This document shows, piece after piece, positions 652 to 7,971 of a stretch of DNA of 64,000 nt. The stretch comes from Telopea speciosissima (Eukaryota; Streptophyta; Magnoliopsida; Proteales; Proteaceae), in the NCBI RefSeq assembly GCF_018873765.1, contig NC_057921.1, positions 64,903,557-64,967,556 on the forward strand. The letters are read 5' to 3'. The position numbers were made by a program, and so were the translations under genes. The notes under the pieces are model-generated. The model saw only the letters and a program-made list of their open reading frames with translations. It was not told the origin of the DNA and made no database searches. The stretch's first letter is position 1. Each line of letters begins with the position of its first letter.

Positions 652-660
652 AAAAAAATT

Positions 661-970
661 GGGTTTTTTACAATTACCACCCCCAAATCTTTCATATCTA
701 CTATTACCCCTCCAAAAACTTTTAAATAACTGTTACCCTCCCCTATTGTATACTAATAATAAAATGACCCCCACCGTTACAGACTCGTAACGGAAGGGGT
801 TAGTAGTGATATTGTGCTGTTGTCATAAATTTTATATGACCAAAATACCCTTCTAACAAATCCTTCCTCTTCACTTCATCACTTGCAGGAAATGGGAGGA
901 ACAAGAACATCGCTTCCTTCTCCAGCGAACACCTCCTTGTTCCGTGACGACTTCTTTCTCCGGCGAACAA
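661..970 (+). repeat. Left terminal inverted repeat of Pack-MULE 1
   Basis: This arm pairs with 2402-2724 in inverse orientation with scattered mismatches and small indels. Shared blocks include the terminal 20 bases, the CTATTACC and CCCACCGTTACA blocks, and an inner block encoding the AACAAGAACATCGC and CTCCGGCGAAC motifs. The inner limit near 970 is approximate. Confidence 0.8.
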
Positions 971-1068
971 GAACATCGTCTTCCTTCAAGCAGATTTGGA
1001 TTCAGAATTAAAGATGATTGAGTACTAAAGAGAAAGAAACCGAAAAAAAACCAATGAAAGTTACCAAC

Positions 1069-1851
1069 CGGGTGCCAGGATTCATCGTTCTCGACATGCC
1101 CATGGTTCTGGTGATCTGTTCTGTGGCTAATTCTCCTGCAGCATTCATCAAAATGTAATACCATCAAATGTCAGACCTCATGAAGCCATTAAGTCTCTGC
1201 TACTACGTCAAATACACAAATCTATATTCTTACATATCAAAAGAAGATAGTGGGGGAAAAAAGAGAATCTTTAACAGAACATACCATCCATGGTAGGATA
1301 CACTATTTAACTGAGGGTTGTTGGAAAAGCTTCCATGGCCACTGTACCATCAACATTCCAAACACAAATTGCATCAAGAGCGTGAAAATTAAAAGCAGGG
1401 GATGGATAAAAAACCCACTACACAAAAAACTGAGAAGAAATGGGGTTTTAATTTACCAATCATGGCCAAGAACAAAGAGAGCCCAGAACATGGTTCCCTG
1501 CGCAGCCCAATAGAGAGGCCAGACAAGCCAATTGTTGAGGTAAGCGGCAGCAGCAGCTAACCCAAGAACCACAACCACATCTCTAACAACATAGCTCATT
1601 GAGCGCCATGGATCCTTAACCCAACAATGTTTAGGCATGGCTGTTCGAATGTCAGCCAAACGGAACGGAGGGGGATTACTTGGATCGAAATCGTCTTCTT
1701 CGCCGATCCCATTAAACCCATTCAAGCCCATCTTCTCTTCTTCTTTGTCCTCTCCATCAATGGATGGAACCTTCAAGGGAGCGCTCACCTTCAAACTCCA
1801 CTCTCTACCTCTGGAACCACCACCAGAGACGGGGGAGGGGTCTGACACCAC
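1069..1851 (-). pseudogene. Captured plastidial omega-3 fatty acid desaturase fragment (FAD7/FAD8-like), exons 1-3
   Basis: The exons read on the minus strand. Exon 1 (1457-1851) encodes the [11 protein letters not shown] stretch, an acidic linker, then [34 protein letters not shown] and LGHD. Exon 2 (1285-1341) continues with CGHGSFSNNPQLNSV and YHGW. Exon 3 (1069-1135, 67 bp) gives RISHRT, HQNHGH and [12 protein letters not shown] borders are kept, and the junctions rebuild the first histidine box HDCGH. The [11 protein letters not shown] and ESWHP wording fits the chloroplast desaturases better than the ER form FAD3. The fragment lacks the transit peptide and everything after exon 3. Exon 2 is 57 bp where the family has about 90 bp, an in-frame loss of about 11 residues. 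The second histidine box reads HRTDH instead of HRTHH. It cannot encode an active desaturase. No in-frame ATG opens exon 1; the frame begins at a GTG near 1851. Confidence 0.88.
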
Positions 1852-2186
1852 ATTCTGACAAGACCCAGCTCGCCATTACGGACTCAGATGAAGAAAAACA
1901 AAGATATTTAATTCAGTGCCTACTACTTGTTTGTGAGAAGTCCACAAAATAAATGGTAGAGAACCAGAGACTCGCAGAGCGTACGTGAAACCCAACAAAT
2001 TTGTTTAACTAAACAGATGAGAAAAGATTCTAACTAAATATAATTGATAATCAGAAAACAAACAAACAAAACAAGTTGTAAAGGATTTGGGATAAGATAA
2101 GGAGATGGGTTTCTCTCTTCTCTTCTCTTTTGATTTCCTTCAACAAGAACCTCACGTTTTGGGTTTCGTCGATGAATTGTGAGTAT

Positions 2187-2345
2187 GGTGAGATCGAGTG
2201 AAGAAACGCGTCCGTCGGGAGAGCAGTTGACACCATTCCAGGTGCAAGGATTGTGAGAATTAGGAATCCAATCGGTCAAGAAGCCAATGGGATCAGTGTG
2301 AACAGACAAGTTCTGGAAGGATATCAGGGCCACATCCTCGTCGTC
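2187..2345 (-). pseudogene. Captured LRR receptor kinase fragment (N-terminal LRR cap, BRI1-like)
   Basis: The minus-strand frame reads DDEDVALISFQNLSVHTDP, then GFLTDWIPNSHNPCTWNGVN and CSPDGRVSSLDL. This is the N-terminal cap domain (LRRNT_2) that opens plant LRR receptor kinases, with the paired cysteines of the CxWxGVxC motif. The wording is closest to BRI1-like receptors as I remember them, which is a weak assignment. The match stops abruptly after LDL, so only about 52 codons were captured. There are no LRR repeats, membrane segment or kinase. The open frame continues upstream into the right inverted repeat of the Pack-MULE, to an ATG at 2579. Confidence 0.72.
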
Positions 2346-2401
2346 TTTATGAGGAGCAGAGAAGAAGTTATATGCACAGATGGTCGCTGCTGGAGCAAGA
2401 G

Positions 2402-2724
2402 GTGTTCGCCGGAGAAAGAAGTCGTCAAGGAACAAGGAGGTGTTCGCCGGAAAAGGAAGCGATGTTCTTGTTCCTCTGGTTTGCTGCAAGTGATGAAGTG
2501 AAGAGAGGAAGTGAAGAGGAAGGATTTGGACGAAGGGTATTTTGGTCATATATAATTCGTGACAACAGCATAATATCACTACTAACCCCCTCCGTTACAG
2601 GTTTGTAACGGTGGGGGTCATTTTGTTATTAATATTCAACAGGGGAGGGTAACAGTTATTTGAAAGTTTTTGGGAGGATAATAGTAGATATGAAAGATTT
2701 GGGGGTGGTAATTGTAAAAAACCC
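2402..2724 (-). repeat. Right terminal inverted repeat of Pack-MULE 1
   Basis: Inverse partner of 661-970. The outer end is exact because the 9-bp target duplication starts at 2725; the inner limit is approximate. Confidence 0.8.
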
Positions 2725-2749
2725 AAAAAAATTCTACCAAGAAAAAGAA

Positions 2750-7352: not shown

Positions 7353-7971
7353 TAAAATTTTAAATATGAGTTTGACTAATTTTCCTTGTTTCCTTTGACT
7401 AAAATTTTGTCATAAAGATATATGTGGGATCCTCTATCAAATGGACTAATCAAGGTAGTGCCAAATGGCAAATAGTGAATTATTATACTTCATTAAACTT
7501 AATTACGCCTACAAAGGCGATTTAAAATTATGGCATTTGGGTTTAATCTTCGTCTTTCCATTAATTCAAATATCAAAAAGAGGCATAACATAATATAATA
7601 ATCTTATGGGTATGTAACCATTTGTTTTCCTCCACTAGTCACTAATGTGGAAAAAGAGACTGAGACTTAAAGTGAAACAATCACCACTACTAGTCCCTTA
7701 AGTTCAAAACTCAACTGGAGTTGAACTTTCACTTATAGGACTTTATGTCCTGTTTGTCATTTCAATGGAGAATGCACTGAGAGGGTGATGGTGGACATTC
7801 CACTTGGGCAACTCTTTCCAGCCAATCCATCAGATATTCAAATGCCACTGAGTCATTTGTTCTTCTTTCAATACTTCTATAGAAACCCCATTTCCAAACA
7901 GTTGTTTTTCAATCATATTAAGCTGTGGCTGGTAGCTGGGGAATTAGAAATTGGAGTATATATCCTCTAAG

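Follow-up and report, generated by a model that had tools for sequence, protein, structure and literature searches.

A two-gene Pack-MULE in Telopea speciosissima belongs to a family whose cargo was very probably assembled stepwise

The window (the whole stretch of Telopea speciosissima DNA that was analysed, 64,000 nucleotides in length) harbors at positions 661–2724 a non-autonomous Mutator-like element (Pack-MULE) that carries fragments of two genes, both on the minus strand, and this identification is confirmed by its ends, its target duplication and the donor genes located elsewhere in the genome. Its cargo was very probably assembled stepwise and the element then spread by transposition. 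The window element is ordinary for its class, and its relatives are the informative part: one outer junction and five nested inner endpoints allow the steps of capture and replacement to be placed in partial order, which is relevant to gene acquisition by Mutator-like elements, a process described as “yet to be understood” (PMC3310237). In addition, sister elements carry an intronless cargo derived from a cytokinin histidine phosphotransfer (AHP) gene, which, if copied from RNA, would link gene capture by DNA transposons to RNA-templated repair.

Structure, donors and copies of the two-gene element

The element is bounded by long terminal inverted repeats of 309 and 322 bp (~310 bp), which are 88% identical to each other, and is flanked by an exact 9-bp target-site duplication, AAAAAAATT, within the range of 9–11 bp that defines MULEs (Table 1). 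The duplication matches at all nine positions in each of the four copies carrying the desaturase piece. As AAAAAAATT is A-rich, chance matching was tested with shifted flank pairs, of which 3 of 238,650 agreed at 9/9 positions (1.3e-5) in this local control around the window element. Among 33 related elements, which were recruited by similarity to the window element with both ends pairable and do not constitute a sample of the whole group, an exact 9-bp duplication was found in 20, at the expected ends or 1 bp from them; the duplication was imperfect in the others, with 8/9 bases in seven and at most seven bases in six, and the corresponding shifted-pair control yielded 2 matches of 9/9 in 13,200. 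A search for other elements with the same termini, as proposed with the original prediction, located the 27-nt end of the inverted repeat at 830 genomic sites with up to three mismatches, and the reversed control sequence at none. The element contains host gene fragments and no transposase; its longest open frames do not exceed 186 aa, LRRNT_2 and DUF3474 being recognized in the two longest.

Table 1. Features of the element and its flanks (positions in the window)
Feature	Position	Strand	Basis
Left target-site duplication, AAAAAAATT	652..660	none	exact repeat
Left terminal inverted repeat, ends GGGTTTTTTACA...	661..969	+	TIR comparison
Plastid omega-3 desaturase (FAD7/8-type) piece, 5′ flank to intron 3	992..2189	-	donor alignment
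Desaturase exon 3, second His box, one His to Asp	1065..1135	-	donor comparison
Desaturase exon 2 with 33-bp in-frame deletion	1285..1341	-	donor comparison
Desaturase exon 1, ATG 1874-1876, 107-bp frameshifting deletion	1457..1876	-	donor comparison and Pfam
171-aa open frame: inverted repeat, LRR cap and desaturase 5′ flank	2037..2549	-	ORF list
4-bp microhomology (ACCA, minus strand) at receptor/desaturase join	2186..2189	none	overlap of donor alignments
BRI1/BRL-type receptor kinase piece (LRRNT_2 cap)	2186..2349	-	donor alignment and Pfam
Right terminal inverted repeat	2403..2724	-	TIR comparison
Right target-site duplication, AAAAAAATT	2725..2733	none	exact repeat

A parent gene was found for each of the two pieces. 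The receptor piece, 164 bp in length, matches Pfam LRRNT_2 (E=3.7e-7) and shares 97% identity with a C9 receptor kinase gene (L049/L050), which has a frame of 1276 codons between stops; the 1,159 residues scanned contain LRRNT_2, LRR, brassinosteroid receptor Island and kinase domains, and the donor is therefore a BRI1/BRL-type receptor. The desaturase piece (~1.2 kb), which comprises the 5′ flank, exons 1–3, introns 1 and 2 and part of intron 3, derives from C8:50270268-50271651 (L013) of the same genome, from which the window copy differs at 59 of 1,187 aligned sites and the four copies at 54–61 of 1,103–1,187. Judged from its exon frames, L013 looks like a complete gene for what we take to be a plastid omega-3 desaturase. 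Exon 1 of the window element matches Pfam DUF3474 (E=1.2e-40), as does exon 1 of the donor, and this domain is presumably the N-terminal part of plastid desaturases; the short frame of exon 3 alone gave no match in the Pfam scan. The donors on C9 and C8 thus lie elsewhere in the genome, unflanked by element ends, and no TIR match was found at L013, L049 or L050. No desaturase or receptor gene was found to run past the inverted repeats, the donor alignments ending inside the element, and an uninterrupted donor gene beyond the repeats, the outcome named in advance as fatal to the original prediction, does not exist here. That prediction of a Pack-MULE with exact 9-bp target duplications, joining pieces of two unrelated genes in one orientation, was borne out, as was its description of the desaturase introns as intact, since the window copy retains introns 1 and 2 together with their GT and AG; its view of the host as a plant other than a grass is probably correct.

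Two further full copies of the two-gene element were identified at C6:68037459 (98.4%) and C4:9366404 (97.5%), together with a near-full copy at C3:1453144 that matches at 94–95% in two pieces and has lost exon 3. Each of the three has its own exact 9-bp duplication, so that the four insertion sites are marked by AAAAAAATT (window), CATTTTTAT, TTAAAATTA and AAAATTTAA, and the four copies diverge from one another by 1.0–2.6% over the desaturase piece. A further locus, L012 (L012:2001-3037, C7:16215000-16216035), contains desaturase and repeat pieces with many small indels. It was considered as an older relative and rejected, because it carries the 33-bp exon 2 deletion found in three copies in addition to these indels; it is therefore a copy that has either decayed or been poorly assembled, and the copy counts do not include it.

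The similarity of the copies raises the question of whether the donor desaturase and receptor genes might be targets of small RNAs arising from the element. The four copies are ~94–98% identical to one another, the cargo matches the donors at ~95–97% of aligned sites, the inverted repeats are long, and regulation of parent genes by Pack-MULEs has been raised (PMC3310237), but the cargo is not in a hairpin arrangement, and such a role appears rather unlikely.

The original prediction also regarded the element as a possible step toward a chimeric gene, which now looks unpromising. The frameshifting deletion in exon 1 is common to all four copies, and no chimeric enzyme can therefore be expected; the exon 2 deletion is present in three of the four, and the substitution in the exon 3 His box in all three copies that keep this exon. 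Separate further damage has occurred in three copies, namely loss of the intron-1 acceptor AG in L009, a stop in exon 1 of L010 and loss of exon 3 in L011. The frame of the LRR cap stops at window positions 2034–2036, short of the desaturase ATG, and a search within the element found no continuous frame that spans both donor proteins. A gene in the making, in which the 171-aa frame or the desaturase remnant would be expressed and selected, might be suggested by the persistence of that frame, which L001 and L009 keep open and L011 retains in a 174-aa version, and by Ka/Ks values of 0.18–0.42 between the donor and the four copies; however, constraint on the donor alone would yield such values, the frame has no start codon in L010, and the copy-to-copy changes (1–6 synonymous and 3–9 replacement) are not numerous enough to reveal selection on the desaturase remnant. 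Together with the damage described above, these observations make a gene in the making very unlikely, and the cargo of the window element probably has no protein function.

Order of the captures within the family

Receptor cargo lies beside the inverted repeat in 10 elements, comprising the four desaturase copies and six others, and in all 10 the outer receptor junction falls at donor base 6732 of L049. The inner ends are nested, at 7529 (L015 and L052), 7110 (L051), 6938 (L014 and L016), 6895 (the four desaturase copies) and 6801 (L018, which is one-sided), such that the receptor piece measures 798, 379 or 207 bp beside other cargo in the relatives and 164 bp in the desaturase copies. Since lost sequence cannot return without recapture at an identical base, the founder must have held at least ~798 bp. 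As the relatives share the outer receptor junction beside other cargo, the desaturase piece very probably replaced an older cargo; the receptor capture thus very probably came first and the desaturase piece joined later. The original prediction had both pieces captured together, which did not hold: the receptor piece is a remnant of an older capture common to six other elements. A single capture of both pieces in the window lineage, with the longer receptor pieces elsewhere representing independent captures, agrees with the clean donor match of each module of the window element, and the shared substitutions among the elements conflict in part; however, independent captures would not begin at one base, as they do in 10/10 elements, nor does such a history sit well with site 63 of the shared 164 bp, which differs from the donor in 10/10, and it is accordingly most unlikely. 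An assembly artefact or a segmental duplication of the donor loci is barely conceivable, the poor condition of L012 being outweighed by four copies whose exact 9-bp duplications all differ and by donor loci devoid of any TIR match.

Within this stepwise history, the nature of the replaced cargo can be approached through the relatives. The inner half of L014, L016 and L051 derives from an HMG-CoA reductase gene (assigned by Pfam PF00368 for L016 and for L020, a sister element discussed below, and by similarity for the others), and that of L015 and L052 is a repeat-like module; element halves also recombine in other members of the family. In a midpoint-rooted tree of nine elements, which excludes L018 and the donor and in which two of the six inner branches are resolved, L014 and the desaturase copies form a group with support of 97/96, and this grouping suggests HMG-CoA reductase as the cargo that the desaturase piece replaced. 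At site 123, the 164-, 207- and 379-bp forms share a G to A change that the two 798-bp forms lack, L018 ending before this site. Other shared substitutions conflict, L051 agreeing with L052 at site 35 and with L015 at site 111, and L014 with L052 at sites 137 and 141; these are C/G to T/A changes, and the branching is therefore blurred by repeated transitions or by exchange between elements, so that the exact branching order is one that we infer. The receptor piece differs from the donor at 4–7 of its 164 sites, a divergence that does not exceed that of the later desaturase piece (~5%), and gene conversion may for this reason have acted on it. Two loci are of interest beside this series: L052 (C968:1466-3203), which carries the 798-bp form and lies on an unplaced contig of 8.2 kb, is ~91% identical to L015, and C5:6606236-6606844 is a copy of the HMG-CoA reductase module (90%) that ends short of the element end and is a possible donor.

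The proposed history comprises four steps. An ancestor would have captured ~800 bp of the BRI1/BRL-type receptor kinase gene; the inner receptor part would then have been cut back in descendants and pieces of other genes joined, HMG-CoA reductase in one branch; in a lineage closely related to the HMG-CoA reductase element L014, the inner half would have been replaced by the 1.2-kb genomic desaturase piece at the 4-bp microhomology; and the two-gene element would finally have transposed to at least four sites. The capture process is likely to have been interrupted gap repair following excision or breakage, in which repair synthesis would start in the inverted repeat, copy the cargo inward and switch to another template; repair via invasion of an ectopic sequence is a model cited in PMC4858842. 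The ACCA overlap agrees with microhomology-guided switching, of which it proves little by itself, and the route of capture was probably template switching, from which end joining or unequal exchange are not told apart.

Larger elements that share these ends would supply a MURA-type transposase and thereby mobilize the window element in trans. Facing ends point to two elements of ~6.17 kb, at C2:7775847-7782019 and C3:17292888-17299051; both match a protein family with a homologue at C8:39806052, which shares a 646-aa open frame with a match to the Mutator DNA-binding domain (PF03108) at C8:39805650. No Pfam match was found in 900 bases of the C2 element. The MULE transposase domain occurs above the cut-off at no fewer than 150 loci, 150 of 827 candidates having been scored, and the PF10551 match nearest to a TIR end lies 203 kb away in a comparison of 70 of these at least 150 matches with 76 of the 830 end sites. 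Mobilization by the ~6.17-kb elements, which are linked to a transposase through homologues, is therefore likely on sequence grounds.

An intronless AHP cargo in sister elements

Four sister elements (L020, L022, L023 and L027) combine 52–54 bp of the receptor gene and an HMG-CoA reductase half with a second half consisting of a 668-bp AHP module, in which the AHP coding sequence is full-length and without introns (L020:2271-2726, minus strand, and likewise in the other three). The donor, C7:30226901-30228407, corresponds to six pieces that abut in the element and are separated in the chromosome by gaps of 84, 124, 297, 145 and 175 bp, and an AHP paralogue on C4 is broken at the same places. 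Two of the five donor introns were read (L069) and both are absent from the element, one having been precisely removed as a GT-AG intron and the other being GT-AA in the assembly; the remaining three are deduced from coordinates alone. The intron within L069 (C7:30226990-30227420) that would end in AA instead of AG may reflect an error, a variant or a damaged donor. The AHP frame of L020 is intact (151 aa, Hpt domain E=4.7e-16), the only one of the four in this state, those of L022, L023 and L027 being broken.

The intronless cargo suggests an RNA-derived template. No free, unbroken copy of the intronless AHP sequence was found among the 14 scored candidates of the genome search, and the cargo shows no poly-A tail past the end of its match to the donor. 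A TATA-like motif (TATATAA) lies in the module, 100 nt before the ATG, and weighs against a simple message as template. Capture of a retrocopy that has since been lost explains these data about as well as the direct use of RNA or cDNA. It is possible, and advanced here tentatively, that the family fills gaps from any template, spliced RNA or cDNA included, with the cargo trimmed and swapped by halves between elements, and in this way serves as a recorder of template switching in the course of DNA repair. The open-licence literature on Pack-MULEs provided no clear precedent for intronless captures, in a search too limited to exclude one. In the animal survey of gap-filling Pack-TIRs, intronless captures of multi-exon genes were dropped by design (PMC8277862), whereas the Telopea family has one beside intron-bearing captures; captures of the RNA-templated type would belong to a class filtered out by at least one published animal survey.

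Relation to known elements and other cargo in the family

The window element shares Mutator-type ends, 9-bp duplications, non-autonomy and host gene fragments with the Pack-MULEs of rice, maize, tomato, Arabidopsis and sacred lotus, some of which also carry fragments of several loci. The statement in the original prediction that such elements come mainly from grasses is out of date, given the 1,447 reported in sacred lotus (PMC4053705) and the 220 in tomato and 46 in Arabidopsis (PMC3310237). Multi-locus Pack-MULEs, in which one element unites pieces of several loci (PMC8903248), non-grass Pack-MULEs (PMC4053705, PMC3310237) and microhomology at capture junctions (PMC8277862) are all already published. 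What distinguishes the window family is that its donors are present in the host genome itself and that comparison of sister elements gives a partial order of capture and trimming.

PM-ZIBP of tomato is likewise a multi-copy dicot Pack-MULE with a persisting donor gene and AT-rich 9-bp duplications, its outer TIR identity being 87 and 94% in two rows of the published table; it is described there as carrying one gene fragment and tandem repeats, whereas the Telopea family has alternative cargos exchanged among relatives (PMC3310237). Ssk-FB4 and the animal gap-filling Pack-TIRs share capture with microhomology and later multicopy transposition, the microhomology being 2 bp (median) in the animal Pack-TIRs and 4 bp in the window element (PMC8277862). 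Pack-CACTA and other Pack-TYPE elements are also TIR elements in which fragments from several loci are combined, but they belong to other superfamilies and the mechanism proposed in these reports is neighbouring insertions (PMC8903248, PMC13317346).

Further cargo was recognized in the family, although a Pfam scan of ten cargo frames left four without a match. In L018 (2046-2497, 3000-3236), the one-sided member, the receptor piece ends after 70 bp, ~500 bp from a HATPase_c frame that we take to be phytochrome-like, and this locus is either a truncated insertion or a larger capture. An aquaporin (PIP-like) piece is carried by L065, as judged by PF00230, and by L066 and L068, as judged by eye. 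A piece of a DUF868 plant gene (E=2e-52) is located at L025:1459-1863 on the minus strand.
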